IMG/VR virus record: IMGVR_UViG_3300021091_000240
Span: 1-33,044 of that record
Reading direction: 5' to 3' (one strand)
Length of the DNA stretch: 33,044 nt
DNA from: a virus
The notes below the pieces were generated by a model. That model saw only the letters and a list, made by a program, of their open reading frames with translations, was not told the origin of the DNA and made no database searches. A program made the translations under genes and the position numbers. Positions within the stretch are counted from its first letter, which is position 1; every line of letters starts with the position of its first letter. Shown piece after piece: positions 1-21,350 of the stretch.

Positions 1-125
1 ATGACAGAGCATGGGAGATTTACACAGACACAGGCTTTGAGCAAGCGATTAGTGACTTGCTGGGCTTTGATGTTACGTTTACAGAACAAGGCATGCAAGA
101 GGACGGGCTGGCTAGCATGGAGTAG
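1..125 (+). CDS. 3' end of an unidentified gene (partial)
   Basis: Reading phase begins at base 3 and stays open to a TAG stop at 123-125, giving about 40 C-terminal residues that include the stretch TGFEQAISDLLGFDVTF. The composition looks like real protein (mixed acidic and hydrophobic, no low-complexity runs), and the frame fits the + strand direction of the following genes. The ATG at base 1 opens another frame of 46 codons rich in Arg, Lys, Cys and Trp, which looks like a shadow. Function cannot be inferred from this tail; the gene starts outside the window. Confidence 0.5.
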   Translation, partial: DRAWEIYTDTGFEQAISDLLGFDVTFTEQGMQEDGLASME

Positions 126-136
126 CAGGCACTAAC

Positions 137-182
137 TTAGTGTGCGCACACTAACGAGGGCTAGTGTGTAAGCGCACACTAA
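137..182. repeat. Palindrome TTAGTGTGCGCACACTAA plus a second inverted copy
   Basis: Bases 137-154 form a perfect 18-bp palindrome. Immediately after it, TAGTGTG (162-168) and CACACTA (175-181) make a second inverted repeat with a 6-nt loop. The half-site TTAGTGTGCGC occurs again at 1701-1711. The pair sits between the end of the upstream gene and the first sigma-70 promoter (219-247), so it could be an operator for a dimeric repressor or a transcript-end hairpin. There is no T-run after either stem, which argues against a classical intrinsic terminator. Confidence 0.6.
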
Positions 183-218
183 CCCCCCCAGACCCCCTGT
201 TAAGCAGGCAAAAATTGG

Positions 219-247
219 TTGACAATTTGATTGGTCGGTAGTATACT
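219..247 (+). promoter_or_regulatory. Sigma-70-type promoter TTGACA-17-TATACT
   Basis: TTGACA at 219-224 and TATACT at 242-247 with exactly 17 bp between. The flanking words (TTGACAATTTG and GGTAGTATACTAA) recur in the promoters at 607 and 825. It reads into the 37-residue membrane protein at 279, which has its own AAAGGAG ribosome site (266-272), so this transcript has a normal leader. Confidence 0.85.
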
Positions 248-278
248 AACGACACTGGGACATTGAAAGGAGCGAACG

Positions 279-392
279 ATGTTTAGACTTATCGGTATTG
301 CCGCAGTCTTGTATGTGGGTTGGATCACCGGCATCATCCAGGCCACGCTGATCCTCATGGCCGCAGGGCTGACCACGATCGCGGGGCTGTAA
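279..392 (+). CDS. Small hydrophobic membrane protein (37 aa)
   Basis: A 37-codon frame starts at ATG 279, seven bases after a strong AAAGGAG site (266-272), and ends at TAA 390-392. The product begins MFRLIGIAAVLYVGW and is hydrophobic almost throughout, consistent with one or two membrane segments. It is the first gene after the promoter at 219-247, and its stop overlaps the next start by one base (TAATG), suggesting translational coupling. I do not recognise a family. Small membrane proteins just after a host-type promoter in phages often act on host envelope or transport functions, but nothing in the sequence shows this here. Gene status rests on promoter, ribosome site and coupling. Confidence 0.65.
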   Translation: MFRLIGIAAVLYVGWITGIIQATLILMAAGLTTIAGL

Positions 393-610
393 TGCCTAGA
401 TATACATTCAGCCGCGCCTCTGTGATAGACGAGATCTTCACTGTGGATGCGGCTGATCTAGAGGCTGCACAGCAGATGGTCTACGATGGAGATCCTAAGG
501 TCAAGATAGAACAGGGCGAGTGGATAGATTGGTATCACCAAGAATACACCCTGGAATCGGAGGAAGACGACCTAGTCACATTCCTACGCACCAAGGATCG
601 AATCGGTTGA
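392..610 (+). CDS. Conserved-type small phage protein, unknown function (72 aa)
   Basis: Starts at ATG 392, whose A is the last base of the preceding TAA, and ends with a TGA that is itself part of the next promoter's TTGACA. The protein opens MPRYTFSRASVIDEIF and is acidic, with no transmembrane segment. The pattern (short beta-rich start, 'EAAQQMVYDGDP', then Trp/Tyr-rich 'EWIDWYHQEY') resembles small soluble proteins I have seen in T4-like and other phages, but I cannot assign a function. A longer reading from ATG 320 overlaps the upstream gene heavily and lacks a ribosome site, so I prefer 392. Confidence 0.75.
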   Translation: MPRYTFSRASVIDEIFTVDAADLEAAQQMVYDGDPKVKIEQGEWIDWYHQEYTLESEEDDLVTFLRTKDRIG

Positions 611-635
611 CAATTTGGCTCACAGGTAGTATACT
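607..635 (+). promoter_or_regulatory. Sigma-70-type promoter, probably leaderless
   Basis: TTGACA 607-612 and TATACT 630-635, spacing 17. The -35 box overlaps the stop codon of the preceding gene. The next ATG is at 642, only six bases after the -10 box, so a start 6-7 nt downstream would place the 5' end at the ATG itself. The same geometry is seen at 12380 and 20032 on the other strand. Confidence 0.8.
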
Positions 636-641
636 AAGAAC

Positions 642-866
642 ATGATGACGTTAACCGCACTTAAATGGCTAGGCACTGGGTTTACCATCCTAGGCGCACT
701 ACTAACCAGCCTGGGCGACTGGGATCCCCTGAACGTGATCGCATTCAACCTGGGCGCGGGATTTTGGCTGTGGGCTAGCATCCGTATGCGAGACTCTGCG
801 CTGATAACCGTGAATGCTGTGTTGTTGACAATCTATGCGTTTGGTAGTATACTAAGATTACAGTGA
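642..866 (+). CDS. Small integral membrane protein, SemiSWEET/PQ-loop-like
   Basis: A 74-residue protein with three predicted membrane spans (about residues 8-24, 30-46 and 53-71) linked by short loops. The middle 'DPLNVIAFNLGAGFWLW' with a following basic turn 'IRMRD' and then 'VNAVLLTIYAFG' resembles the half-transporter layout of SemiSWEET or PnuC-like proteins (three helices, Pro-Asn in the first loop, Asn in the last helix). Three-helix proteins of this sort work as dimers; substrate cannot be predicted. The start is ATGATG at 642/645 directly after a promoter with no room for a ribosome site. The next promoter (825-853) is embedded in its last codons. Confidence 0.7.
   Translation: MMTLTALKWLGTGFTILGALLTSLGDWDPLNVIAFNLGAGFWLWASIRMRDSALITVNAVLLTIYAFGSILRLQ
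825..853 (+). promoter_or_regulatory. Sigma-70-type promoter inside the preceding gene
   Basis: TTGACA 825-830 and TATACT 848-853, spacing 17, again with GGTAGTATACTAAGA around the -10 box. It lies wholly inside the 3' part of the membrane-protein gene and reads into the gene at 887, which has an AAGGAG site at 872-877. Confidence 0.8.
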
Positions 867-886
867 ACGATAAGGAGCGAACCGAA

Positions 887-1054
887 ATGGACGACGTATT
901 CGACGAACAGTTGGCACAGGAAGGCTACCGGGTCTGGGCAGTGGACGGGAAATTCCTGCTCATAGACGTGTTGGGCGAGTTCATAGACTCTGAGCACACC
1001 ACCTTAGAGGCCCTGCGAGAGTATTGTGCAAAGAACGTGTTTACTTTCTATTAA
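887..1054 (+). CDS. Small acidic protein, unknown (55 aa)
   Basis: ATG 887 follows AAGGAG (872-877) by nine bases. An upstream GTG at 863 in the same frame lacks a ribosome site, so 887 is preferred. The product begins MDDVFDEQLAQEGYRVW and continues with 'DGKFLLIDVLGEF', an alternating pattern typical of a small alpha/beta or beta-hairpin domain; it has no signal peptide and no membrane segment. Its TAA stop is embedded in the ribosome site of the next gene. No family recognised. It is the first gene behind the third of three copied promoters. Confidence 0.7.
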   Translation: MDDVFDEQLAQEGYRVWAVDGKFLLIDVLGEFIDSEHTTLEALREYCAKNVFTFY

Positions 1055-1064
1055 GGAGACTGGG

Positions 1065-1256
1065 ATGAAGACTTCTACAGCAGCGGCCATGGGCTTCCTG
1101 GGATTGCTCATGGTCATGGGCGCGGTGGGCGGCATGGAAGATCCTGCCAAGATGGACTATTTCGTGGAGCAACTGGCCATAGCCCTAACAGGACTTGGTC
1201 TGATGTTCTGTGCGACGCTGGGCCTAGAGAATTCCCAGTACTGGGACCAAAGGTAA
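1065..1256 (+). CDS. Small membrane protein with two predicted helices (63 aa)
   Basis: ATG 1065 lies seven bases after AAGGAG at 1053-1058, which overlaps the preceding stop. Residues about 5-24 (Gly/Met/Leu-rich) and 32-50 are hydrophobic enough to span the membrane, separated by a charged stretch 'MEDPAKMDYFVEQ'. The tail 'ENSQYWDQR' is polar. This could be a holin-sized protein (two helices, short), but no other lysis gene is evident beside it except the lipoprotein at 1445, so I do not call it one. Start 1065 is chosen over upstream ATG 1026, which overlaps the preceding gene. Confidence 0.65.
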   Translation: MKTSTAAAMGFLGLLMVMGAVGGMEDPAKMDYFVEQLAIALTGLGLMFCATLGLENSQYWDQR

Positions 1257-1260
1257 CGGG

Positions 1261-1476
1261 ATGATCACTATCACGGGACTCACTGAACTGCAGCGAGACA
1301 TCGCTGATCGCTTGTGGGCATTGGACACCACGGAGGCGGTAGAGCAGTACATCTCCACGCTGCCCAAGTCGCTGCGGCGCCAAGCATGGGTGGTCCAGCA
1401 GATGATCATAGCAGCAGAACTAGACTCTTACATGGAGATCACGGATGAAGTACACGATTATCTGCATAGCCGCTAG
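1261..1476 (+). CDS. Small helical protein, conserved phage type, unknown function
   Basis: A 71-residue, probably all-helical soluble protein containing 'ELQRDIADRLWALDT', 'EQYISTLP' and 'VVQQMIIAAELDSY'. This order (short helix, DTxEEVExYIxxLP turn, then a helix with a hydrophobic face) recalls a family of small uncharacterised proteins found across T4-like marine phages; this is from memory, not a search. It starts four bases after the preceding stop with only a weak ribosome site (GGTAACGGG). Its 3' end overlaps the lipoprotein gene by 32 bases in another frame. Confidence 0.7.
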   Translation: MITITGLTELQRDIADRLWALDTTEAVEQYISTLPKSLRRQAWVVQQMIIAAELDSYMEITDEVHDYLHSR

Positions 1477-1645
1477 CCTAGTCCTAGTGCAGGGCTGTGC
1501 TAGCCGCGACCCACGCGATGCACCTTGGGATCCTCCACAGGGTCGGCTGCTGTTCGAGCAGATCCCCCCATGGGATGATCGTGCCCACAGGGTCTGCTGT
1601 GGCCACCTGAGGAGGTGTGAGCCTCACCAGTCACCGAGGTGCTGA
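1445..1645 (+). CDS. Putative small lipoprotein (possible outer spanin)
   Basis: The first 18 residues form a lipoprotein signal: 'MKYTIICIAASLVLVQGC', with a basic start, hydrophobic core and a Cys after V-Q-G (imperfect lipobox). The mature part is short and rich in Pro, Arg and Asp ('APWDPPQGR', 'IPPWDD'). Small Pro-rich lipoproteins are typical of phage outer-membrane spanins (Rz1-like), which disrupt the outer membrane at lysis. However, the overlapping upstream gene has no N-terminal membrane anchor, so no inner spanin partner is visible. A GGAG at 1434-1437 supports the start. The Cys/His-rich tail looks less constrained; the true functional part may be shorter. Confidence 0.45.
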   Translation: MKYTIICIAASLVLVQGCASRDPRDAPWDPPQGRLLFEQIPPWDDRAHRVCCGHLRRCEPHQSPRC

Positions 1646-1677
1646 GGGGTCTATGGTGGTGAGGGGTCTATGGTGGT
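1644..1677 (+). repeat. Perfect tandem duplication of a 17-bp unit
   Basis: GAGGGGTCTATGGTGGT occurs twice in immediate succession (1644-1660, 1661-1677). It starts at the end of the lipoprotein gene, so one unit boundary coincides with that gene's stop region. No third copy is seen. Could be a replication slippage product. Confidence 0.8.
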
Positions 1678-1824
1678 CGACCGGTATACAGCGTAGCATG
1701 TTAGTGTGCGCTAACTTAGGCTAGTGGTCTAAAATCACCACCCTGAAAACCTAAGTACTCCACCTAAATTTTTTGCGCGGCCAATTTTTTCCCTGCAGGA
1801 CCCATTTCAGCAGTAAATAGTCTT
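1646..1824. other. Intergenic region with boundary half-site and A/T tract
   Basis: Besides the tandem 17-mers, it holds TTAGTGTGCGC at 1701-1711 (followed by TAAC), the same half-site as the palindrome at 137-154, so these elements bracket the small-gene block. AAATTTTTTGCGCGG at 1766-1780 resembles the A/T-tract-plus-GCGC ends of the hairpin elements at 2693 and 4193. The last ten bases before the next gene carry the late-promoter-like AGTAAATA. I see no gene. Confidence 0.5.
1812..1819 (+). promoter_or_regulatory. T4-type late promoter-like AGTAAATA
   Basis: AGTAAATA matches the T4 late -10 octamer TATAAATA at six of eight positions and ends five bases before the ATG at 1825. No -35 box and no ribosome site precede that gene, which fits a late-sigma site with a very short or absent leader. 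It is weaker than the perfect octamers at 20903 and 21343. Confidence 0.45.
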
Positions 1825-2715
1825 ATGACTACCTTACACACTTTCGGCTGTTCTATCACACAGGGTTTTGCCCTACCCGATGTTGTACAGCCTTTAACTG
1901 ATGATCAAGGCCGTGTGCTGCCAGGTTATCTAGCCTCTAATATGCTGGAGTCAGGTGAGGCACAATGGGAAGACATACACGTATATGCACCTTCAAATCA
2001 CGCTTGGCCTGCGGTCTTGGCAGCAAAGCTGGGCGTGCCAGTTAATAATCATGCTCGTCGTGGTGCCTGCTTTAATCAAATCGCCCGCCAGTGTGCTGCC
2101 AATCAGGGCAGTATACAACCCCAAGACACAGTCATAGTCATGTGGACTTATCTGAGCCGTGTCAGCCTACAGTGGCCCGCTCGTACCGCAGTGCCATTCT
2201 GCAACATGGTAGATCCTGGTTGGGGTTGGACTAGCCGTATTTTACCAGGATTTAACAAGTTTTTTGGCTTGAGCAGATCATCACCACGGTCCCAGGCACA
2301 AGACCAGGATCACTACACGTACATAGAATCTCGGGCTCGCTTGGCCTTGGATCCCAGATCAGTCTATGATCAATACCATCAGAATCTAGTCACAGTGGTC
2401 ACAGTGGATGGACTGCTGCGAAGCACAGGTGCTCGAGTCATACATCTATCAGTGGAAGTACAGCCATATATGGAGCAACTGGTTCAGGCTCAGCGTGAGC
2501 TCGCCATTAATCTTCGTGAGTATTCTGCCATTCCTGATCCCTGTGAGTGGTACGCTGTCTCAGTAGATCACGCCTCAGCTAGAATCATACATGATCCTCG
2601 TATACCGCCCGCAGAAAACGACATGCACCCTTCGGTCACACATCACAGCAACTTCGCTGATCTGATCTATGATCGCTATTTTACCGCTGACCGCTGCGCT
2701 GCTTCGCAGCCTTAA
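1825..2715 (+). CDS. SGNH/GDSL-type hydrolase-like protein
   Basis: A 296-residue soluble protein with the signature blocks of the SGNH hydrolase fold. Block I is 'HTFGCSITQG' (residues 5-14, candidate nucleophile Ser10). A block II-like 'NNHARRGACFNQIAR' follows near residue 75, and a C-terminal 'DMHPSVTHHSNFADLIYD' supplies the Asp-x-His pair of block V. Family members are esterases, lipases or carbohydrate O-acetylesterases. In a late phage gene, deacetylation of host surface glycan or of the virion is plausible but not shown. The two other SGNH-like genes (4658, 5544) resemble each other much more than this one. No ribosome site is seen; a late-promoter-like AGTAAATA ends five bases upstream. 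The C-terminal 'RCAASQP' is encoded by the hairpin that follows. Confidence 0.75.
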   Translation: MTTLHTFGCSITQGFALPDVVQPLTDDQGRVLPGYLASNMLESGEAQWEDIHVYAPSNHAWPAVLAAKLGVPVNNHARRGACFNQIARQCAANQGSIQPQDTVIVMWTYLSRVSLQWPARTAVPFCNMVDPGWGWTSRILPGFNKFFGLSRSSPRSQAQDQDHYTYIESRARLALDPRSVYDQYHQNLVTVVTVDGLLRSTGARVIHLSVEVQPYMEQLVQAQRELAINLREYSAIPDPCEWYAVSVDHASARIIHDPRIPPAENDMHPSVTHHSNFADLIYDRYFTADRCAASQP

Positions 2716-2724
2716 AAAATTTTT
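2693..2724 (+). terminator. Hairpin with A6T5 tract, terminator-like
   Basis: GCTGCG (2693-2698) pairs with CGCAGC (2705-2710) around a 6-nt loop, followed by CTT, A6 and T5. The stem overlaps the last codons of the SGNH gene. The T-run begins ten bases after the stem, which is late for a classical terminator, but A-tract/T-tract pairing could extend it. A near copy lies at 4193-4222. Confidence 0.5.
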
Positions 2725-2750
2725 ACGCTGCCCTTGGGAATATATACTAT

Positions 2751-2957
2751 ATGATTTGGGAAACTCCTACACGCAGCCTAGTTAAAACCGTTATCTATCG
2801 CGTATGGGTTTTGATCACTACTTATATAATGCTCTTAGTCACTGGACAGAGTCTAGAATCAGCACTCGTTCCCACTCTAGTTATTAATGCCATATGGATG
2901 ACTTCATTCTACGTCTATGATCGTATCTGGGCCAGGATCTCCTGGGGGCGCAGATAA
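2751..2957 (+). CDS. DUF2061-like small membrane protein
   Basis: The 68-residue protein matches the known DUF2061 pattern. It opens with 'ETPTRSLVKTVIYRVWV' (charged start, Arg-Ser, Lys then Tyr-Arg), has a membrane helix, then 'VTGQSLESAL', a second helix, and ends in 'YDRIWARISWGRR' where the family usually has YxHERxWxxIxWG. DUF2061 proteins are predicted two-helix membrane proteins of unknown function, common in bacteria and in T4-like marine phages. The TATACT just before the ATG (2743-2748) has no -35 partner, so I do not call a promoter. The 3' end carries the late promoter for the next gene. Confidence 0.8.
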   Translation: MIWETPTRSLVKTVIYRVWVLITTYIMLLVTGQSLESALVPTLVINAIWMTSFYVYDRIWARISWGRR

Positions 2958-2960
2958 ATA
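2953..2960 (+). promoter_or_regulatory. T4-type late promoter GATAAATA
   Basis: GATAAATA (seven of eight matches to TATAAATA) at 2953-2960, followed by CTTGACGAGGAG, which ends in the GAGGAG ribosome site of the gene at 2980. The segment TAAATACTTGACRAGGAG is repeated at 4255-4272 in front of another small gene. Confidence 0.65.
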
Positions 2961-2979
2961 CTTGACGAGGAGCAACGAT

Positions 2980-3168
2980 ATGGCCAATACCACGAAAAAA
3001 ACCCTAGAAGACACCCGAGAAACAGAACGGCAGAATCAAGGTCGCGAACCAGAAGGTCGCGCACGAGTGATGCCCCAGCCCATGGGCAGTGATTTCAGTG
3101 ACGTCACTGCCACACCCCATAATCCACAACAGTACGATCCCACCACGCAGGGACTGAGACCAGTTTAA
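2980..3168 (+). CDS. Small polar, probably disordered protein (62 aa)
   Basis: ATG 2980 is eight bases after GAGGAG (2967-2972) and 20 bases after the late promoter GATAAATA. The product starts MANTTKKTLEDTRETERQNQ and is rich in Gln, Arg, Asp, Pro and Thr with no hydrophobic core, so it is probably unstructured. Small disordered late proteins may be virion or scaffold-associated, but no family is recognised. A longer reading from ATG 2917 would overlap the DUF2061 gene and ignores the ribosome site. It ends six bases before the next gene. Confidence 0.7.
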   Translation: MANTTKKTLEDTRETERQNQGREPEGRARVMPQPMGSDFSDVTATPHNPQQYDPTTQGLRPV

Positions 3169-3174
3169 TCCCAG

Positions 3175-3612
3175 ATGGATCACAGTGTCCGCCAACAGTT
3201 CCAGCAGTTGGTAGAAGATCACAGCCAGGCAGTGGGTTTCGCAGCACCACAGAGTCTCAGAGACTATCTAGCTCTGATCTTGGCCGAACGCTTTGATCGC
3301 CCCGGATTCATACCCGAGCCCACGTTCGCAGAAGCCTATCTCAGGCTGTATTCTGCATACCGGCCCGGTGTCTATCGTGAGTTCGCTGATTCTACCTTGG
3401 TGTTCTGCAGCCTACTACCAGAATACGGTCAGCGCCGGGGCATCAGCAGGGACTACTATGCCAGTCTAGCCATATCTACCTACTACAGTTTAGCCGATCT
3501 CGCACACGACGATCGCTACACCCAGTTGGGCAATTGGTTCTATACCTGCCAGGGTTTCCTCTGCAGCCTGCTGCATCCACAAAGACACCTACGGTTAGTC
3601 GAACTGGACTAA
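3175..3612 (+). CDS. Conserved-looking helical protein, unknown function
   Basis: A 145-residue soluble, mostly helical protein. The central segment 'REFADSTLVFCSLLPEYGQRRGIS' followed by 'RDYYASLAISTYYSLAD' resembles a bacterial pattern I recall as 'GDxxLFxxGFFPExxxRRGVSxDYYxxMGxxAYxxLA', a family without assigned role. No catalytic motif, signal peptide or membrane segment is visible. It lies seven bases after the preceding gene and eight before the oxygenase, so it should be part of the same late transcript from 2953. Possibly a partner of that oxygenase, but adjacency is the only argument. Confidence 0.7.
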   Translation: MDHSVRQQFQQLVEDHSQAVGFAAPQSLRDYLALILAERFDRPGFIPEPTFAEAYLRLYSAYRPGVYREFADSTLVFCSLLPEYGQRRGISRDYYASLAISTYYSLADLAHDDRYTQLGNWFYTCQGFLCSLLHPQRHLRLVELD

Positions 3613-3619
3613 CTACTGG

Positions 3620-4189
3620 ATGATACATGACATCACTGATCTATTGTCACCGCAGATGGCTGCCTACATGCGAGAGAAGTTTTCCAGCCCTGAGATACCC
3701 TGGTTCTACCTACCTTTCACTGCCAATCCACAGGATCTAGGCTCGCTGCCCCAGTATGCGGGATCTTTCAGCCATCTGGTCTACAAAAACGATGAAGCAG
3801 CTTCACCATTGGCTGAAGCAGCCATACAGATCCTGATCACTGCCTGCGATCGCACTGGCCAAGATCTGCAGGAAGTCATACGCATACGGCTGGGGTTCAG
3901 CACACGCACACCCCGTCAGATACAGCACTCGCCGCATCGCGATCAGCAGTACCCGCATCGCGCAGGCATATGGTATCCCATCACCTCATCGGGTGACACC
4001 GTGATCTTCGCAGAAACCGCTCCTAGCCGGCGCTACACCGAAGTCTATCGTAGATCTCCTGTAGCCAATTCGTGGATAGATTTCCCCGGCGAGCACATGC
4101 ATGCGTCCACCACTCCGGATCAGCATGAAACAAGGATCGTTCTCAACTACAACTACACGGTCCGAGGTGATCCCCCGGCGCCTCGATAA
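3620..4189 (+). CDS. 2-oxoglutarate/Fe(II)-dependent oxygenase-like
   Basis: The 189-residue protein has the metal-binding triad of the double-stranded beta-helix oxygenases: His106-x-Asp108 ('SPHRDQQYPHR'), a distal His161 in 'GEHMHASTT', and Arg172 in 'ETRIVLNYNY' as the likely 2-oxoglutarate ligand. Residues around 117-131 ('IWYPITSSGDTVIF') fit the strand between them. Such enzymes hydroxylate proteins, nucleic acid bases or small molecules; phages encode many with unknown targets. It is the last gene before a hairpin (4193) and belongs to the late unit that starts at 2953. A second, diverged oxygenase with an HxH motif is encoded at 9541-10146. Confidence 0.8.
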   Translation: MIHDITDLLSPQMAAYMREKFSSPEIPWFYLPFTANPQDLGSLPQYAGSFSHLVYKNDEAASPLAEAAIQILITACDRTGQDLQEVIRIRLGFSTRTPRQIQHSPHRDQQYPHRAGIWYPITSSGDTVIFAETAPSRRYTEVYRRSPVANSWIDFPGEHMHASTTPDQHETRIVLNYNYTVRGDPPAPR

Positions 4190-4192
4190 AAA

Positions 4193-4222
4193 TCTGCGCT
4201 GTGCTCCGCAGAAAAAAATTTT
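4193..4222 (+). terminator. Hairpin with A/T tract, second copy
   Basis: TCTGCG (4193-4198) pairs with CGCAGA (4207-4212) around an 8-nt loop, followed directly by A-rich then TTTT. It begins four bases after the oxygenase stop. It shares layout and much sequence with 2693-2724 (CTGCGCTG, then CGCAG, then an A-tract, a T-tract and CGCTG), so both are copies of one intergenic element. Confidence 0.55.
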
Positions 4223-4252
4223 GCGCTGCGCGGATCGATTGACCACACCAGT

Positions 4253-4260
4253 GCTAAATA
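4253..4260 (+). promoter_or_regulatory. T4-type late promoter-like GCTAAATA
   Basis: GCTAAATA (six of eight matches to TATAAATA) followed by CTTGACAAGGAG, the same arrangement as at 2953-2972. It reads into the gene at 4279. Confidence 0.55.
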
Positions 4261-4278
4261 CTTGACAAGGAGAAGTCT

Positions 4279-4485
4279 ATGAAAGCATGGAAGATCATGG
4301 CACGCAACACACGCACCCATATACGCATCCAAAAGCAGTTTCTAGACGGCTACGTGATCACTGATCGAGCGGTGGCCAATCAAGAAGCGCAGAGATTCGC
4401 TCGAGCACAGGCAGATCGCAGCCGTGAGCCTTGGATCGCAGAAATCGCAGAGTACGAAGTGGGCTCTAGGCCCGGCGTTCAGTGA
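4279..4485 (+). CDS. Small basic protein, unknown (68 aa)
   Basis: ATG 4279 has a strong AAGGAGAAG site seven to ten bases upstream and a late-promoter-like GCTAAATA at 4253. The product starts MKAWKIMARNTRTHIRIQKQ, is rich in Arg, Gln and Ala, and has no membrane segment; the region 'DRAVANQEAQRFARAQADR' looks helical. The basic, short character would suit a nucleic-acid or virion-associated protein, but no family is recognised. The 172 bases after it hold no convincing gene. Confidence 0.7.
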   Translation: MKAWKIMARNTRTHIRIQKQFLDGYVITDRAVANQEAQRFARAQADRSREPWIAEIAEYEVGSRPGVQ

Positions 4486-4657
4486 TATAGATAGTTGACA
4501 GTTTCAGAGTTTTCTCTGTAGACAGCAGCACCATTCTTCAAGTGGAATCTACGGGCCATGTCTGTTTTTGGGCTCAGGGTCACGGAGGTCTCGATCTCGG
4601 GGCGCCCTCGGCACCACGATCCCAGCGGAAAAAAATCTCAGATGATAATTACTAGAC
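4486..4657. other. Gap without a convincing gene; small hairpin
   Basis: CAGAG-TTTT-CTCTG (4505-4518) forms a 5-bp stem. The TTGACA at 4495-4500 has no -10 partner. On the minus strand a frame ending at TGA 4485-4487 (around the stop of the + strand gene) reads a protein-like stretch over 4488-4620 but has no start with a ribosome site and is closed upstream by TGA near 4643. It may be the remnant of a gene or a coincidence. Confidence 0.35.
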
Positions 4658-5542
4658 ATGCCTACCATCTACGTTTTCGGTGATTCGTTCACTGTGCCCA
4701 ATCAAATCTACTCCGGCGCATCCCTCCACGGACTTTATGCCAGCCCCGGCGAAAGCTGGCAGCAGGGGCAGCCTCGTCCCAAGACCGCGACCTGGATCAA
4801 TCTAGTGGCTGCTGCGCTGAGCCAACAGCATCTAGATCTGGATCTGATCAATCACAGCCAGCACGGAGTAGCACAGGATTTCTGCTGGACCCAGATCAAC
4901 AAGGCCATGCCAGTGATCAATCCCGATGACTACGTGATAGTGGCGGTCACGCATCCCAATAGATTCTGGTACATCCACGAACATCCCAATCTGTCAAATC
5001 ACCACATCATACACATTGACCAGTATCTGGAAAAAGAGCAGGCACAGGCCATAAAACTGTTCATGCAGCACATACAGCGGCCCGAACTGGACACTCTACA
5101 CCAGACCAATCGCATGAAGAGCCTGGCCTACGAAGTGCTGAAACGAGGACTGCGCAGACCATTGATGATCAACTGTTTCGCCACGGATATCACAGAAGTT
5201 GACAGCATAGAAGAACTGGCCTGGGCCCAGGGCAATCTCTTCACTATACAGGCGCAGGAATATCTCCGAGGTAAAGACGACAGTGCCAATTTTTTCAAAG
5301 GCATAGACTGCAGATACAATCATCTCTGCCTCAGCAATCACAGGATCTTGGCTGACAAGGTCGTCGCGGCTTTCACAGAAGGCGCGGTGGTCGATCTAGA
5401 TCAGGGATTCTATCAAGGACTGTTGAAGGATGGCGTGCTAGATGACCTAGAGTTTTGCCAGAGAGAGTTGGACTGGGACAAGATGCAGTTCATCACACAG
5501 CAGCAACAGCAGCAAAAACGCACATGGATGAAATTGAGATAA
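4658..5542 (+). CDS. SGNH hydrolase-like protein, tandem copy A
   Basis: 294 residues. Block I is 'YVFGDSFTVP' with candidate nucleophile Ser10. 'LINHSQHGVAQDFCW' gives the block II Gly, 'VAVTHPNRFWY' aligns with block III, and 'CRYNHLCLSNHRILADK' near residue 215-235 provides the catalytic His region. It is clearly paralogous to the next gene: both share 'DCRYNHLCLSNH', 'IQRP', a 'VTHP/LTHP' motif and the ending 'EFCQRELD'. The last third carries a Gln-rich run before the basic tail. It ends one base before the next ATG, so the two are co-translated. No clear promoter is seen; TAATTA near 4646-4651 is a poor late-promoter match. Confidence 0.75.
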   Translation: MPTIYVFGDSFTVPNQIYSGASLHGLYASPGESWQQGQPRPKTATWINLVAAALSQQHLDLDLINHSQHGVAQDFCWTQINKAMPVINPDDYVIVAVTHPNRFWYIHEHPNLSNHHIIHIDQYLEKEQAQAIKLFMQHIQRPELDTLHQTNRMKSLAYEVLKRGLRRPLMINCFATDITEVDSIEELAWAQGNLFTIQAQEYLRGKDDSANFFKGIDCRYNHLCLSNHRILADKVVAAFTEGAVVDLDQGFYQGLLKDGVLDDLEFCQRELDWDKMQFITQQQQQQKRTWMKLR

Positions 5543-5543
5543 T

Positions 5544-6407
5544 ATGAGTAGATTATTCGTGATCGGAGACAGTTTTTCAGCCAGCCCAAAGAAAGGCGAC
5601 GAAACCAAGAATTGGTGCAGATTGTTGGCAGAACGGTTGCATCAAGAAACCGGACGAGATATCACGCTGATCAACAACAGTCTGGTGGGAACCAGCCAAG
5701 AATGGTGCTGGACGCATCTGCAGATTTGGTTGAACTATGAAATGACTGCAGATGATTACCTGGTGATCTGCCTCACGCATCCCAGCAGGGTATGGTTCTT
5801 GGATCACATGCCCGAAATGACCAATGCCAACATAATCGATCTAGATCGTTGGGTCACCAAAGAAGAAGCCAAAGCCATAGAACTCTATATCAGATACATA
5901 CAGCGTCCCATGATAGATCTCATGAACGTCAATAACAGATTGGCCTATGTGGCCTATCAGACGCAGCGCAGATCTCTAAGGAAACCTTTGATCATCAAAT
6001 GCTTCGATCAAGATTTGGATCAGGCCGTGGAATTCCCGGAACTTTTGATCGCTCAAGGATCTCTGATGTCAGACGTGCAGTATCATGAATTTGATGATCC
6101 CGAAGCAGAAAGAGAAAATAGATTTTGGCGAGGCATAGACTGCAGATATAATCATCTCTGCCTCAGCAATCACGAGATCTTGGTCCAGAAATTGCTGGAC
6201 AGTTTTGTATCTGGACAGGCCCTGGATCTCCAATCTGGATTCCATAGGGCGCTATTGAAACCAGGGGCGCTGGATGATATAGAATTCTGCCAGAGAGAAC
6301 TGGACATGCAGACCAGGAAAAACAATCTCGAGAATACCGATAAATTCAAGCCTATCATACCTTGGGCCAAACGAGTGGGTGTCAAAACCGGCCAAATAGA
6401 TGCCTGA
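5544..6407 (+). CDS. SGNH hydrolase-like protein, tandem copy B
   Basis: 287 residues, beginning MSRLFVIGDSFSASPKKGD with candidate nucleophile Ser10. 'LINNSLVGTSQEWCW' (block II), 'VICLTHPSRVWFL' (block III) and 'CRYNHLCLSNHEILVQK' (block V region) match the preceding gene position by position, so the pair arose by tandem duplication followed by marked divergence. This copy lacks the insertion seen in copy A between blocks I and II. Substrate is unknown; an esterase or O-deacetylase acting on host surface sugars would suit a late gene. The stop lies only four bases before the -35 box of the next promoter. Confidence 0.75.
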   Translation: MSRLFVIGDSFSASPKKGDETKNWCRLLAERLHQETGRDITLINNSLVGTSQEWCWTHLQIWLNYEMTADDYLVICLTHPSRVWFLDHMPEMTNANIIDLDRWVTKEEAKAIELYIRYIQRPMIDLMNVNNRLAYVAYQTQRRSLRKPLIIKCFDQDLDQAVEFPELLIAQGSLMSDVQYHEFDDPEAERENRFWRGIDCRYNHLCLSNHEILVQKLLDSFVSGQALDLQSGFHRALLKPGALDDIEFCQRELDMQTRKNNLENTDKFKPIIPWAKRVGVKTGQIDA

Positions 6408-6410
6408 TCG

Positions 6411-6439
6411 TTGACAGATGTGATAAATTAGTGTATACT
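6411..6439 (+). promoter_or_regulatory. Sigma-70-type promoter for the Bax-inhibitor-like gene
   Basis: TTGACA 6411-6416 and TATACT 6434-6439, spacing 17. It is followed by AAAGGAG (6452-6458) six bases before ATG 6465. This is the only host-type promoter seen between 1.0 and 12.3 kb, and it makes the gene an independent, probably early unit. Confidence 0.85.
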
Positions 6440-6464
6440 AGCAGTATCTTTAAAGGAGAATCAA

Positions 6465-7136
6465 ATGGATCGTAGTCTTTCAGCCGTAGAAAGCCTAAAC
6501 ACAGCAGTAGCGGGTGTTTTGGGTCGTATGGCAGTGGGTGTTTTCGCTACTTTGGTCGCAGCCGCCGTCATCAACGCCATGGGTCTAGTGCCCGTGCTGT
6601 TTGGCGGCATCCTAGGATATGTGATCATCTTCGCTCCTCTCGGTATGAGCCTGTTCCTGGCCTGGAAGGGTGCAGAAATGTCGGAGAGCACCATCAAGGC
6701 ATGGTATTTTGCCTTTGCTGCTGTGATGGGTGTCAGCCTTAGTCTGATCATCAGCATGTTTACCACAGCCTCGATAGTCAATGCTCTAATTGGTACCACT
6801 GTGAGTTTTGGTGCCTTGGCAGCATGGGGATACTTCACCAAACGTGATATATCTGGATGGGGACCATTCTTGTTCGCAGGTGTCATCGGATTGATCGTGG
6901 CAGGTATCGCTAACATCTTTATCGCTAGCACCGCTCTGCAGATGACCTTGAATGTGTTGACCATCTTGATCTTCCTAGGACTCACAGCCTATGACATGAA
7001 TCGCATCCGTGATATGTTCTGGTCAGCCAGCGAAAGCGAAATCGCTAGGCTGCAGTGGTTTGGAGCACTGAGCCTCTACATCAACTTTATCAATATTTTC
7101 GTGAGCCTACTGCAGTTATTTGGCAATAGAGAATAA
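6465..7136 (+). CDS. Bax inhibitor-1/YccA-family integral membrane protein
   Basis: 223 residues with about seven hydrophobic helices and the hallmarks of the bacterial BI-1 family (YccA/YbhL/TMBIM): 'WGYFTKRDISGWGPFLF' before helix 5, 'IFLGLTAYDMNRIRDM' after helix 6 with the conserved Asp, and the terminal 'GALSLYINFINIFVSLLQLFGNR'-type helix. Length equals bacterial relatives, so it is intact. In E. coli YccA is a substrate and modulator of the FtsH protease; others are proposed Ca2+/H+ leak channels. A phage copy may protect phage membrane proteins or block FtsH-dependent stress, which is inference. It stands alone between its own sigma-70 promoter and a terminator. Confidence 0.92.
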   Translation: MDRSLSAVESLNTAVAGVLGRMAVGVFATLVAAAVINAMGLVPVLFGGILGYVIIFAPLGMSLFLAWKGAEMSESTIKAWYFAFAAVMGVSLSLIISMFTTASIVNALIGTTVSFGALAAWGYFTKRDISGWGPFLFAGVIGLIVAGIANIFIASTALQMTLNVLTILIFLGLTAYDMNRIRDMFWSASESEIARLQWFGALSLYINFINIFVSLLQLFGNRE

Positions 7137-11245: not shown

Positions 11246-11358
11246 TTGTATATAAATGGATCTCTTTTTTTAAGTTCTTCTAGTCTTTTTTTCCAAGCAC
11301 GATTTTGCTGGTATCGCTTATACGGCCAAACAATAAAATCTATAATTTTTTTAAACAT
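11242..11358 (-). CDS. Micro-gene: basic 38-aa protein, conserved phage type
   Basis: Begins MFKKIIDFIVWPYKRYQQNR and ends 'KKRDPFIYK'. ATG at 11356-11358 lies inside the 3' end of the primase gene (8-nt overlap), with GGAG seven bases upstream. The layout, an amphipathic 'FIVWPYKRY' start, a Lys/Arg-Leu-Glu helix and the ending RDPFIY, matches a tiny protein I recall from T4-like marine phages; this is memory, not a search. It could attach to the membrane through its aromatic start. Its stop is coupled to the next micro-gene by ATGA. Confidence 0.7.
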   Translation of the reverse strand: MFKKIIDFIVWPYKRYQQNRAWKKRLEELKKRDPFIYK

Positions 11359-12373
11359 CTGTCTTCTCCAATTCAGCAAACTTATTCAAAAGTTTTCTTT
11401 TTTCTATTTCGATTTTCGCAGGATTGTCTGTGGCGGATTTTATTAGATCGACAATGACAAATAATTTGCCATATCTTTTCACAGCGTCTGCGCAGTCTTT
11501 AATGTCATCTTCCCAGTTAGGAAAAGCCACGCTCCAACCTAATTTCTGTGCCTGTGCAATCAAGATCAATCCTGCAAGATCTTGATCGGGAACGATTATA
11601 GTTTCTTTGCCTATATCATTAATTATTCTGCTCTGCTGATCTGATACCTCGTTAGTGAGCAAAGCCACACCTCCGATGCTCAAGGCATCGAATGGTCCCT
11701 CTGCTACAAATAGATATTTGTATTCTTCTTTCTGTGCATCTACGTTATAAACGAAAAATGGATGTTGATCTGAAAGATATTTAGGTCGACCTTCTCCGAT
11801 TTTTCTAGCGGTATTGCCTACGATTTTACCATGATAGAAAAAGGGAATGATCACTCGATTAGCGTAGCCTGGAGCGGGCGACCAATAAAAATTTTCACTG
11901 ATAGGATCAAATCCTCGTTGATAAACATAATCGATCACCGGTTCCAGATCATCGGCGATTTCTCCGAGATACCCACTATTGACCCAATCGTTGATAGGCA
12001 TAGATCCTTCGGGTAACGTTTTCTCTTCGAACTCAATTTTCTGTTCTACATACTGGGTCGGTGAGTAACCTTCGCCTTCGGTTTTCAGCGCCTCAAATGT
12101 CAATTCTTTGATCGTGTCACTGGAGGCTCCTAGCCACTGACAGAGAGTTTTAAATTTAGGAGATAATGTAGAACCTGGTTTCCATCCTGTGGAAAATTTA
12201 CAATTAAAACAGTTATAGACGATACCTTCGCTGAGCATGATACCCGCACGTTTTCTAGTGTCGGCACGATGTCCCCGGTGATGGCAACAAGGAGCATTGA
12301 AACTCATCCATCCACTAGGACTATTCTTAATCTTGGGAAGGAGAGATCTAAATTTATCTACGACTAACGTCAT
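11351..12373 (-). CDS. 61: DNA primase, T4 gp61 type
   Basis: 340 residues, as expected for gp61. An N-terminal zinc-binding region contains Cys29-Cys30-His31-His32 and Cys55-x2-Cys58 ('YNCFNCKF'), which recognises the priming site. 'RVIIPFFYHGKIVGNTARK' precedes a TOPRIM domain with Glu225 ('FVAEGPFDALSIGG') and the Asp pair in 'IIVPDQDLAG' (Asp263, Asp265), the metal-binding catalytic residues. It makes RNA primers for the lagging strand with the gp41 helicase encoded downstream. The start ATG 12373 is just six bases after a strong -10 box, so the mRNA is probably leaderless. It is the first gene of an eight-gene operon running to 7180. Confidence 0.95.
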   Translation of the reverse strand: MTLVVDKFRSLLPKIKNSPSGWMSFNAPCCHHRGHRADTRKRAGIMLSEGIVYNCFNCKFSTGWKPGSTLSPKFKTLCQWLGASSDTIKELTFEALKTEGEGYSPTQYVEQKIEFEEKTLPEGSMPINDWVNSGYLGEIADDLEPVIDYVYQRGFDPISENFYWSPAPGYANRVIIPFFYHGKIVGNTARKIGEGRPKYLSDQHPFFVYNVDAQKEEYKYLFVAEGPFDALSIGGVALLTNEVSDQQSRIINDIGKETIIVPDQDLAGLILIAQAQKLGWSVAFPNWEDDIKDCADAVKRYGKLFVIVDLIKSATDNPAKIEIEKRKLLNKFAELEKTDV

Positions 12374-12379
12374 AAGAAC

Positions 12380-12408
12380 AGTATACTATCTATAGAGTAT
12401 GCTGTCAA
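12380..12408 (-). promoter_or_regulatory. Sigma-70-type promoter, leaderless, for the replication operon
   Basis: On the minus strand TTGACA (12408-12403), 17-bp spacer, TATACT (12385-12380), then GTTCTT and ATG (12373-12371). The six-base gap to ATG leaves no leader or ribosome site. The -35 box lies in the last codons of the upstream virion-protein gene. This is the only promoter seen for the primase-helicase operon. Confidence 0.85.
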
Positions 12409-16681: not shown

Positions 16682-17388
16682 TTATTCCTCTTTTCTAACA
16701 TCGCTCGAGTTTTTTGATAAGACAAATCGAATGAATGAGTCCATCGTCCAAAATGTTTGTTCCAATCTCGATCATCGAACAGATTAATGTCCATATCCCA
16801 GTCCTCCTCAAACATGGGAATGAATTGTGCCAATGCCTGACCCGCTTTTATGCGGATCATGTACGGCTCTGATTTTAGTTTCAACAGGCAATTTATATTG
16901 CTGACATGCTGATATTTGAATTCTAAGATACCGGGAGCCACGGTCCATTCTAAAGGATCTTTTTGATCCCAAACAGGTGACATCATCAACCATTTTACCA
17001 TCCGATCAGTTTTAAAATACCACGGACTCATCAATTTTATGTTGCAATAACCGGGCCATGCACCCGAGGCCTGGCTGTCAATGTGATGTCTTTCTAAGGG
17101 CAGTTTGATTTCTTCTTTGCAGGCAAAATCGTAGGCGATAGATCCGTCCGGGCGGACTTCGATGTCGATGTCTGACCAAGACCTAATGAGAAAACTGTTT
17201 TTATAAAGATCCTGGAATCCGTTACAATGCCGCACGGTGACCCAATCGGGATCTTTGCTAAGGTCGAAATACCAATTAGGCAAAGACCCTTTGCCTGCCT
17301 GAGGTGGAAATAGATCGACTAGGCTCTGCATAGTAGTATAGCATTGTAGTTTGATCTTTTTCTTTTTAAAATTGAAAAAATTTATCAT
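16678..17388 (-). CDS. Conserved-type protein of the UvsW operon, unknown
   Basis: 236 residues. After a basic start come 'QCYTTMQSLVDLFPPQAGKG', 'VRHCNGFQDLYKNSFLIRSW', 'DIDIEVRPDGSIAYDF', 'SPWYFKTDRMVKWLMMSPVW', 'APGILEFKYQHVSNIN' and 'IRIKAGQALAQFIPMFEED'. The last part, a beta-strand pair followed by 'I.AG.PLAQ.IPM', is similar to a beta-sandwich family found in both phages and bacteria (DUF6065-like by memory). It joins UvsW and the next gene through ATGA overlaps. Function unknown. Confidence 0.75.
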   Translation of the reverse strand: MINFFNFKKKKIKLQCYTTMQSLVDLFPPQAGKGSLPNWYFDLSKDPDWVTVRHCNGFQDLYKNSFLIRSWSDIDIEVRPDGSIAYDFACKEEIKLPLERHHIDSQASGAWPGYCNIKLMSPWYFKTDRMVKWLMMSPVWDQKDPLEWTVAPGILEFKYQHVSNINCLLKLKSEPYMIRIKAGQALAQFIPMFEEDWDMDINLFDDRDWNKHFGRWTHSFDLSYQKTRAMLEKRNK

Positions 17389-18839
17389 ATGGTAACCTTG
17401 GTGACTTGGAAGGGATATTTTGCTTCTTTATAATATTTTTTTCTTTCTGTGAGATGACGTTTGGCATACTTACAGGTCGAAGTTATATCCCAGATCTGCA
17501 CGAAATCTTTGTCTTCGGCTTTTCTGATGCCTCGTCCTATGCTCTGTATCACCCGAACAAAACTCTTGCCAGGTTCCAATAGAACCAAGTTGAAAATACG
17601 AGGTATATTGATACCTACAGCGGCAACACCGTAAGTTGCCACGATGATTTTATTATCGGCCGTTTTAATTTCATCATATTCTTCTTTTCTATCGTCTAGT
17701 TTTACCGCACCCGAGATGAACACTGAATCTTTTAAAATCGCAGTGATCTTATTTCCTGTGTCGATCCTATTGACTAACACTAATGTATTACCTGTATCGG
17801 AAATTTCTTCGATCTTGTTAGCGATCCATTCGATCCTTTTTTCATCGGTGACTAGCCAGGTATATTCTTCTTGATATGAACGGAATTCTTCTATGTCTAT
17901 GGTTTGTAGCACGTTGATTTCTAATTTCGCCAGCACATCTTTTTGTTGTAGATCATAAGCCGACACTTGATTTATCACAGGTCCTATGCCAGCCAATAGA
18001 CTCTGGAATTCCCATTTTTCTTTAGGTATAGTTCCTGTTAAACCCCAACGGATAGGACAATTACGGAAGTTCTGAGTGGCCAATCTCATTAGTACATCTG
18101 CTTTGGCCTGATGCACCTCGTCGATGATAACGGCAATCACCCCTTCGCAGAATTCTGCCAAAGATAAAGTATCGTCGTCATAACTCTTTTTCTCGAGCAC
18201 GTTGAGACTCTGCCATGTGCAGATAGTGTGTGTTCGATTTAATTCTTTGCGATCTCCGAAATACACGCCAACGTCTAAGCCTAGATTCTTGTAGTCTTCT
18301 TCAGTCTGGACAACAAGCGATTTGTTCGGAACAATAACCATCGTACGGCCATAAGGTTCACAAAGATGCGAAAGCGTCGCGGTAGTAATCGTTTTACCAG
18401 CACCTGTAGCTACCTCCTGTAATGATTGCGGGTTTTTTAAAAACTTGTTAACCACATCATATTGATAATCTCTCAGCACGATTGGTTGGCCTGCCGCCGG
18501 GTGACCTATTGGCCAAGTCTTTCCCTGATCCGCCCAATAGTTTTCTCCGATGTAGGCGAATGACATCGTTTGATGCAGACGTTGATCCTCAACTTCTATG
18601 TCATATCCGGAATTTTCTATGATGGGAAGTATGACATTTAGATGTGCTAGATAACCGGTCCCACCTATGCCGAAAAAGGTCTTAGTTCCATCCCAACGAC
18701 CTAATTTATATGCAGGCATATGGCGGGCATAGGGAAGATCAAACTTTAGTTCGTTGACAATTTTACGCCGGACTTCTACAGGCAGGCTCTCGACTTTTAT
18801 ATTGACTTCGTCTTTGATAATCAGTTTACAACTTGACAA
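17385..18839 (-). CDS. uvsW: UvsW-type recombination helicase (SF2)
   Basis: 484 residues, close to T4 UvsW. An N-terminal about 115-residue domain contains 'YARHMPAYKLGRWDG'. Then come the SF2 motifs: Q-like 'LRDYQYDVV' (122-130), Walker A 'ATGAGKT' (144-150), 'IIDEVHQAK' DEVH box (240-243), 'GLTGT' (266-270), 'VATYGVAAVGINIP' (400-413) and motif VI 'QSIGRGIRK' (432-440). UvsW unwinds D-loops, R-loops and Holliday junctions and in T4 moves the phage from origin- to recombination-dependent replication. In T4 it is a late gene; here the operon instead begins with a sigma-70-type promoter at 20032. Overlaps the preceding gene by 14 nt. Confidence 0.95.
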   Translation of the reverse strand: MSSCKLIIKDEVNIKVESLPVEVRRKIVNELKFDLPYARHMPAYKLGRWDGTKTFFGIGGTGYLAHLNVILPIIENSGYDIEVEDQRLHQTMSFAYIGENYWADQGKTWPIGHPAAGQPIVLRDYQYDVVNKFLKNPQSLQEVATGAGKTITTATLSHLCEPYGRTMVIVPNKSLVVQTEEDYKNLGLDVGVYFGDRKELNRTHTICTWQSLNVLEKKSYDDDTLSLAEFCEGVIAVIIDEVHQAKADVLMRLATQNFRNCPIRWGLTGTIPKEKWEFQSLLAGIGPVINQVSAYDLQQKDVLAKLEINVLQTIDIEEFRSYQEEYTWLVTDEKRIEWIANKIEEISDTGNTLVLVNRIDTGNKITAILKDSVFISGAVKLDDRKEEYDEIKTADNKIIVATYGVAAVGINIPRIFNLVLLEPGKSFVRVIQSIGRGIRKAEDKDFVQIWDITSTCKYAKRHLTERKKYYKEAKYPFQVTKVTI

Positions 18840-20025
18840 TTTTAAAATTCCTTATCACTGTAGGTTTCACTTCTCCTAGATAACATAGACAAGGATGATT
18901 GAAAATCCACGTAGAAACGATCGCGTCACTGAGCGGAGGCACATAACAGTTTGTCCCTATAATTTTAACATCTATTTTATTTTTAAACAACCATTTAGGC
19001 GGCTTCTGTAAGAAAATATAGATGTTACCTTCGTCGACTTTTCCTCCTAATCGATTTTCTTTGATCCAAGAGTTAATGTGAGAATTCTCTTTTTCTGATT
19101 CTCTGAAACAGATTTTGATTTCATCTTTACAGCCAGCGATTTCAGCATCAGATATGAACTGTTTTAACCATTCGAGCAAATTTTTGGTGTTCTTATCTAA
19201 GATCACTGCCGAGCGGCCACCGGCCGATCTATGCAGGTCGAAAAATTTTGAATTCTCTTTCAACCAAAATTGATTGGCAGAATTAACAGAAACACACTCT
19301 ACCAAGGTACTGAGTGGTTTTTCCGATTTTAATGGAAACCCCATGGTTTTCGCCAAGAAAATATCCTGTTCGCGGATACCTGTTTTTTTAGATTCGAACG
19401 CTTCGATCGCGTCGTTGACCGCATTGACTAATATGACCCTGTGTTCGTCGGCGCGAGCATACGGCATTATCGAATCTTGCTGTTGCCATATCTCTTCGAC
19501 ACTGCTGACTAGATCTAAAAATGTATTATCTATGTCAAAATTGTGGTAATTTACGAATTCATTAACGTGCATGATATTGTGTTTGTATGCTTCAATCATG
19601 CGTAATTTTTTTTCATGATCCCATCGATTATTTTCACTGTTCGACCTTTCATTCTTGACCTCGTTGTCGAACGTTTCTTTTAGCGAGAAGGGGAATTTCA
19701 AGCAAATCCAGATTTTTTTCTGATCATCAACTTTGACAAAAACTTTTTTAGATAGATCTAAGGTACGAAAAGGTTTTTTCCATACCGGATTTGATATCTC
19801 CGATTTATAATCTAGACCGAGATCGAAACTTTCGTTTTTATATCTAGATAAAATCTTTAAAAGATAGTTGGCTTGATTAGAAGTCAGCGATTTTTCGTCA
19901 TTCGCACAGTAATCATGAAGGCTATATGTGGCCTTGAGGTCCTGATTGGTCACCAATAACTGCTGCGAGGAAATCAAAGAATGAAATTGATCAAAAATAT
20001 CTTCTATGTAAACAGATTTTGACAT
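18826..20025 (-). CDS. Large unknown protein leading the UvsW operon
   Basis: 399 residues, soluble, charged, mixed alpha/beta. 'EKSLTSNQANYLLKILSRYK' near residue 45 and the basic, beta-rich C-terminus ending 'GEVKPTVIRNFKIVKL' stand out; 'DLHRSAGGRSAVILDKNT' is a Gly/Ser turn but not a P-loop. I recall similar long proteins next to uvsW in T4-like marine phages, uncharacterised. The start ATG 20025 is six bases after the -10 box, so it is probably translated from a leaderless mRNA. Overlap with UvsW by 14 nt suggests co-production and perhaps a partner role. Confidence 0.75.
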   Translation of the reverse strand: MSKSVYIEDIFDQFHSLISSQQLLVTNQDLKATYSLHDYCANDEKSLTSNQANYLLKILSRYKNESFDLGLDYKSEISNPVWKKPFRTLDLSKKVFVKVDDQKKIWICLKFPFSLKETFDNEVKNERSNSENNRWDHEKKLRMIEAYKHNIMHVNEFVNYHNFDIDNTFLDLVSSVEEIWQQQDSIMPYARADEHRVILVNAVNDAIEAFESKKTGIREQDIFLAKTMGFPLKSEKPLSTLVECVSVNSANQFWLKENSKFFDLHRSAGGRSAVILDKNTKNLLEWLKQFISDAEIAGCKDEIKICFRESEKENSHINSWIKENRLGGKVDEGNIYIFLQKPPKWLFKNKIDVKIIGTNCYVPPLSDAIVSTWIFNHPCLCYLGEVKPTVIRNFKIVKL

Positions 20026-20031
20026 TGTAGT

Positions 20032-20060
20032 AGTTTACTATAATTTCTGCATTAGGTCAA
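20032..20060 (-). promoter_or_regulatory. Sigma-70-type promoter, leaderless, for the UvsW operon
   Basis: Minus strand: TTGACC (20060-20055), 17-bp spacer, TAAACT (20037-20032), then ACTACA and ATG (20025-20023). Both boxes are one base off consensus relative to the 12380 promoter, but spacing and the six-base gap to ATG are identical. It lies in the 39-bp gap between two genes. Confidence 0.65.
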
Positions 20061-20902: not shown

Positions 20903-20910
20903 TATAAATA
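20903..20910 (+). promoter_or_regulatory. T4-type late promoter TATAAATA (perfect)
   Basis: Perfect octamer, 22 bases before ATG 20933 on the + strand. Only seven bases further on, TATTTA (20917-20922) reads TAAATA on the minus strand, toward the gene ending at 20065, so this short gap seems to hold crossing divergent late promoters. Confidence 0.7.
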
Positions 20911-21342: not shown

Positions 21343-21350
21343 TATAAATA
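21343..21350 (+). promoter_or_regulatory. T4-type late promoter TATAAATA (perfect)
   Basis: Perfect octamer 26 bases before ATG 21377, with GAGGA as ribosome site near 21368-21372. It drives the gmd and glycosyltransferase pair. Confidence 0.75.

Follow-up and report, generated by a model that had tools for sequence, protein, structure and literature searches.

Does the transcript of the uvsW operon begin on the start codon of its first gene? The question is raised by a promoter whose −10 box stands exactly six bases before the ATG of a 399-residue (399-aa) gene, and by two further genes with the same arrangement in the window, which is the whole stretch of DNA analysed here (33,044 bases, positions 1 to 33,044 of the virus record IMGVR_UViG_3300021091_000240). 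The UvsW-type helicase of the window is nearest to those of Sinorhizobium phage Phosso (56%), Agrobacterium phage Atu_ph07 (53%) and Pseudomonas phage PA5oct (52%). As these three are all jumbo phages, and the DnaB-type helicase and primase also encoded in the window are both consistent with jumbo-phage affinity, the window is most likely a fragment of a large phage genome. The rhizobial phages among the top UvsW matches, together with a Bax1-I relative in Rhodobacterales (41% identity), are weak hints as to the host. We note that the G+C content falls from about 50% over the first 6 kb to about 39% further on (positions 1–7000 and 7500–33044 were compared), and that gene content differs between the same two parts, the first holding small ORFs and the DUF6552 gene, the second replication and glycosyltransferase-type genes.

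Promoters and start codons in the window

At all three sites, sigma70-type hexamers with a 17-base spacer are followed by exactly six bases and an ATG (Table 1), as the initial annotation had stated and as is read directly from the sequence. The strand, which it had omitted, is minus for both the 399-aa gene and the primase. The hexamers are those of a host sigma70-type promoter, TTGACA-like and TATAAT-like boxes 16–18 bases apart; the primase and DUF6552 sites match TTGACA/TATACT perfectly, and the site of the 399-aa gene has two mismatches. Each gene starts with ATG, no Shine-Dalgarno (SD) sequence precedes the start, and the −10-like hexamer ends about six bases ahead of it, the pattern by which bacterial leaderless genes are recognized. 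An in-frame stop codon (TAA for the 399-aa gene, TAG for the primase and the DUF6552 gene) lies 12 bases 5′ of each ATG, directly before or inside the −10 region, and an earlier start is therefore impossible for the three ORFs.

Table 1. Promoters and genes of the window, with positions numbered from its first base
Feature	Position	Strand	Remarks
−35 hexamer TTGACC, promoter of the 399-aa gene and uvsW operon	20055–20060	−	Read from sequence
−10 hexamer TAAACT, promoter of the 399-aa gene	20032–20037	−	17-base spacer, 20038–20054
Six-base gap ACTACA before the 399-aa gene	20026–20031	−	Length constant in all homologues, sequence variable
399-aa gene, first of operon, predicted leaderless	18826–20025	−	ATG 20025–20023; no assigned function
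UvsW-type helicase (ResIII/DEAD/Helicase_C), second operon gene	17385–18839	−	TTG start, SD-like AAGGA
Primase promoter, TTGACA-17-TATACT	12380–12408	−	Within 3′ end of upstream ORF, stop TAG 12388–12386
DNA primase gene (phrog_47), predicted leaderless	11351–12373	−	Gap GTTCTT, ATG at 12373
DUF6552 gene promoter, TTGACA-17-TATACT	607–635	+	TGA in −35 box is upstream ORF stop
74-aa membrane protein (Pfam DUF6552), predicted leaderless	642–866	+	Gap AAGAAC, starts ATG ATG
Contrast promoter, TTGACA-17-TATACT	219–247	+	31-nt leader, SD AAGGAG, ATG 279
Contrast promoter, TTGACA-17-TATACT	825–853	+	GTG 863 nine bases on; SD AAGGAG, in-frame ATG 890 (36 bases)
Contrast promoter, TTGACA-17-TATACT	6411–6439	+	25-nt leader, SD AAAGGAG, Bax1-I gene ATG 6465

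The helicase gene overlaps the 399-aa gene with its TTG start. The 399-aa protein has no match in Pfam, PHROG or the named phages; its predicted model gives non-significant SF2-helicase-like matches in the PDB, weak hints that the fold may resemble SF2-helicase domains, and in BFVD it resembles phage proteins that are themselves uncharacterised, including one of Atu_ph07. The product of the plus-strand gene had been called SemiSWEET-like, an identity that Pfam replaces with DUF6552 by a match just above the cutoff.

Five perfect TTGACA-17-TATACT sites are present in the window, two with the leaderless layout and three, the contrast promoters of Table 1, ahead of SD-led genes; one consensus thus serves both kinds of gene. 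The three latter promoters are absent from the initial annotation. The ORF listed as 863–1054 from its GTG more likely begins at the in-frame, SD-preceded ATG 890.

Enrichment and conservation of the six-base distance

The spacing was counted in a related set, the window plus eight IMG/VR records (727 kb), picked by protein similarity and not by promoter. A promoter-like site is defined as TTGACA with at most one mismatch, a spacer of 16–18 bases, and TATAAT or TATACT with at most one mismatch; for each offset after the −10 box, the ATGs that open an ORF of at least 60 aa were counted, with three scrambled motifs as controls. Of the 10 promoter-like sites in the window alone, 3 are followed at offset 6 by an ATG that opens an ORF, which at the control rate of 0.4% per offset corresponds to P = 7e-6, or about 4e-4 when any of 60 offsets is allowed. 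Across the related set, such an ATG is found at offset 6 in 30 of 421 promoter-like sites, as against 0–5 ORF-opening ATGs at each of the offsets 0–5 and 7–15, and the scrambled controls are flat. After clustering, the offset-6 ATGs comprise 17 protein families, compared with a mean of 1.7 elsewhere (P = 6e-12). The earlier judgement that the recurrence is unlikely by chance is thereby borne out.

The offset-6 sites are also distinct in the promoter itself. Their spacer is exactly 17 bases in 30 of 30 cases, against 71 of 98 in the class with offsets of 20–40 nt, where an SD is present in 65 of the 98. The ATG is the first of its ORF in 26 of the 30. A site in G003, enclosed by a long ORF, is probably spurious, and it may not be the only one. 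Five named jumbo phages that were sampled (1.9 Mb) show no spike at offset 6, with 6 of 1203 sites. Counted by genes, the layout amounts to about 3.1% in the related set and 0.13% in the named jumbo phage set. With about 3% of genes so arranged, and three of the five perfect promoters of the window serving SD-led genes, the layout is not the preferred way of expression that it had been taken for.

A pattern-only scan of IMG/VR for TTGACA-17-TATACT-N6-ATG, in which spacings were compared as fractions and not as totals, returns at least 120 loci. The two largest downstream families among the matches listed, clustered jointly with the related set, are the primase and the 399-aa family. In these viral contigs from beyond the related clade, the listed matches whose ATG comes first in an ORF of 40 aa or more make up 18% for N5, 69% for N6, 44% for N7 and 26% for N10; the fraction being highest at N6 and next at N7, these data point to offset 6, and less so offset 7, as a general leaderless signature in phage DNA.

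Conservation within the two main families follows the same distance. A −10-like box lies six bases before the ATG in all six relatives of the 399-aa gene (42–99% identity). Primases were gathered by protein similarity, and only those with an intact upstream region were counted; all 48 have a −10-like box 5–7 bases before the start, mostly 6, and none has an SD. The primases of PA5oct (GTG start), SCTP-2 and RAS14 (7-base gap) also have the layout. PA5oct carries further TTGAC-17-TATAMT sites, at 12831, 65629 and 248668, each with an ATG after the six-base gap. GTG starts occur in some distant primase relatives (PA5oct, L155–L157, L166–L171); leaderless GUG starts would be weak in E. coli (PMC9031893), a point against the leaderless reading. 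In the enterobacterial, Vibrio and rhizobial jumbo phages, by contrast, the primase is preceded by a leader, which almost always contains an SD-like element. When the primase tree is rooted at its midpoint, the leadered phages fall into two clades and RAS14, the last tagged leadered despite its 7-base gap. Close relatives in both families differ in the six gap bases but not in their number, so the distance is what is held constant, and it is kept across roughly 32–98% protein identity. The DUF6552 case is evidently less conserved than these two: the window, G002 and L050 (itself retrieved by the promoter pattern) share the layout, and the G001 copy, 88% identical, has no such promoter.

Two primase annotations are touched by this spacing. 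In SCTP-2 (L201, 1501 and 1597), the annotated start is 96 nt 3′ of the likely leaderless ATG. In PA5oct (L200, 1483 and 1489), the GTG given as the start adjoins the −10 box, too early to be part of the mRNA, and the GTG six bases beyond it (145890 in PA5oct) fits the layout. Both starts look misannotated, and the six-base rule offers a simple aid for correcting start codons in phage annotation.

Proposed initiation on the start codon and its alternatives

If the −10 hexamer occupies −12 to −7, a gap of six bases would place +1 on the A of the ATG. RNA polymerase carrying the host housekeeping sigma factor would then initiate at the start-codon A and produce a leaderless mRNA, whose 5′-terminal AUG would be bound by the ribosome (typically 70S) and initiator tRNA without Shine-Dalgarno pairing; ribosomes are able to bind a 5′-terminal AUG directly (PMC9031893). 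This mode would be used by a small fixed set of genes that includes the primase and the first gene of the UvsW operon, and the majority of the remaining genes, some with the identical promoter consensus, would carry SD leaders. We consider it highly likely that host sigma70-type promoters put +1 on the start-codon A in this manner, giving leaderless mRNAs and SD-free translation. The initial annotation had proposed that the mRNA begins at the ATG without a ribosome site; the conserved spacing, the variable gap bases and the enrichment of this offset over all its neighbours strongly support that proposal at the level of sequence. Its assignment of these genes to early or middle expression goes too far, such timing being suggested by the sigma70-type sequence and the gene functions.

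The gain would be compactness, since the promoter can be housed in the last bases of the preceding gene and a leader is dispensable. In several cases the upstream gene ends on the TGA of TTGACA, and ahead of most primases it ends on a TAG or TAA before the −10 box. Because the promoter so often overlaps the upstream gene, compactness is a plausible benefit of the leaderless layout.

The closeness of the upstream gene has a further consequence. A same-strand ORF ends 9–66 nt upstream in 25 of the 30 offset-6 cases, so longer mRNA that reads through from upstream may exist beside the leaderless one, and the 12 nt found in most primases would suit reinitiation. It is nevertheless unlikely that such read-through mRNAs give most of the protein, by termination-reinitiation or scanning, with the leaderless RNA as a by-product. 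The fixed six-base distance from the −10 box to the ATG and the fixed 17-base spacer would be left unexplained, no SD precedes these starts, and at 5 of the 30 sites the 150 nt upstream are free of same-strand ORFs. In addition, terminator-like hairpins are seen by eye before the leaderless promoter in one family (G001–G003).

A second alternative is that the annotated ATGs are wrong, translation beginning at a downstream, SD-led start on mRNAs with ordinary leaders. Some records do annotate a later start, as for the SCTP-2 primase, and the DUF6552 gene opens with two ATGs. However, changes from codon 2 onward are mostly third-position and synonymous in the primase and 399-aa families, as in translated sequence, tblastn alignments begin at residue 1 in most primase and all 399-aa relatives, and the window primase has no alternative start within its first 60 nt. 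The codon conservation excludes downstream starts for the primase and the 399-aa gene, whose annotated ATGs are, on this evidence, the true translation starts; for the layout as a whole, we hold this alternative to be very improbable. Least probable is that promoters squeezed into short intergenic gaps lie near ATGs by accident. Promoters do overlap upstream gene ends, and three cases in one window is a small number, but such crowding predicts a broad range of short distances. The spike at 6, with hardly any ATGs at 0–5 and few at 7–15, excludes chance, and the spacing is retained, moreover, among divergent relatives.

Several other ideas about these sites were considered and set aside. Terminators that generally insulate leaderless genes are not indicated, with 3 of 30 sites under a strict rule compared with 4.5% at random positions. 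A phage initiator tRNA as helper is likewise rejected, the tRNA(CAT) genes of the relatives being, by eye, without initiator features (unpaired C1:A72): the tRNA(CAT) of G001 and G002 begins with G and looks Ile2- or elongator-type by eye, that of G003 begins with T, and no tRNA(CAT) gene is found in the window. A T4-type late promoter (TATAAATA) does not account for the leaderless sites, which have −35 boxes and no TATAAATA, and this element is not over-represented in the clade formed by the window and its relatives.

We also note that tRNA(CAT) and tRNA-Arg(TCT) adjoin a conserved leaderless gene of 105–116 aa in three relatives (G001 4463–4753, G002 114357–114513 and G003 185944–186147), with the terminator-like hairpin between the tRNA genes and the leaderless gene; the G001 cluster additionally holds a tRNA-Leu, and the gene product resembles a GIY-YIG-type protein by eye. 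Boxes resembling the T4 late element TATAAATA are found in the window at 20903–20910 and 21343–21350, 22–26 bases before ATG 20933 and ATG 21377.

Relation to known leaderless genes and phage promoters

Leaderless mRNA and its −10 signature are already known; what is new is their conservation in replication genes of lytic phages. The usual view is that leaderless mRNAs are uncommon in Proteobacteria and that phages offer isolated examples; in the present group, the same replication genes retain the exact distance from promoter to ATG through wide divergence. The open literature yielded no survey devoted to leaderless phage genes, and a 2026 jumbo phage review does not use the word. The reason for a lytic phage to do without a ribosome-binding site can thereby be tested in cultured phages such as PA5oct. 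One speculative answer, which we put forward as doubtful, is that leaderless replication genes are a deliberate translation strategy of a large group of lytic phages, such that the primase and the UvsW operon might stay translated while infection limits or alters SD-dependent initiation, with lineages swapping between leaderless and SD-led forms by leader length alone.

Bacterial leaderless genes are the closest parallel. Their signature is a −10-like signal some 12 bp ahead of the start (Zheng et al. 2011, PMC3160421), and mapped leaderless transcription starts in Sinorhizobium all begin with AUG (PMC3616915). The genes described here share the −10 hexamer ending six bases before the start, the lack of an SD and the ATG. 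The bacterial genes are distributed genome-wide in cellular genomes, mostly of Actinobacteria and Deinococcus-Thermus, and are rare in Proteobacteria (PMC3160421), whereas the present layout belongs to a small conserved gene set in lytic phages and combines a complete −35 box with a spacer that is always 17 bases long. Among leaderless phage transcripts, lambda cI (PMC9031893, PMC3160421) and its like also start at the AUG and are made by host RNA polymerase, as is predicted here, but lambda cI is a single repressor gene of a temperate phage; the genes in question are replication genes of large, apparently lytic phages, in which the layout persists through deep divergence.

Among large phages, AR9 (PMC5312081) and phiKZ have a studied promoter or 5′-UTR layout and possess multisubunit RNA polymerases of their own. 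The 5′ UTRs of AR9 are 26–491 nt long and its promoters are read by phage polymerases (PMC5312081), unlike the host sigma70-type sites described here; the same paper states that phage transcripts are often leaderless (PMC5312081). The most direct comparison is provided by GAP32, RaK2, Asterius-type EcMJ, Vibrio 2.275.O, Phosso and probably Atu_ph07, which have a homologous primase gene in the same place. In primases of the GAP32/RaK2/EcMJ/2.275.O/Phosso type, the six-base gap is replaced by a leader, which almost always has an SD-like element, and in several of the SD-led jumbo phage primases a TATAAT box lies 25–35 nt upstream.
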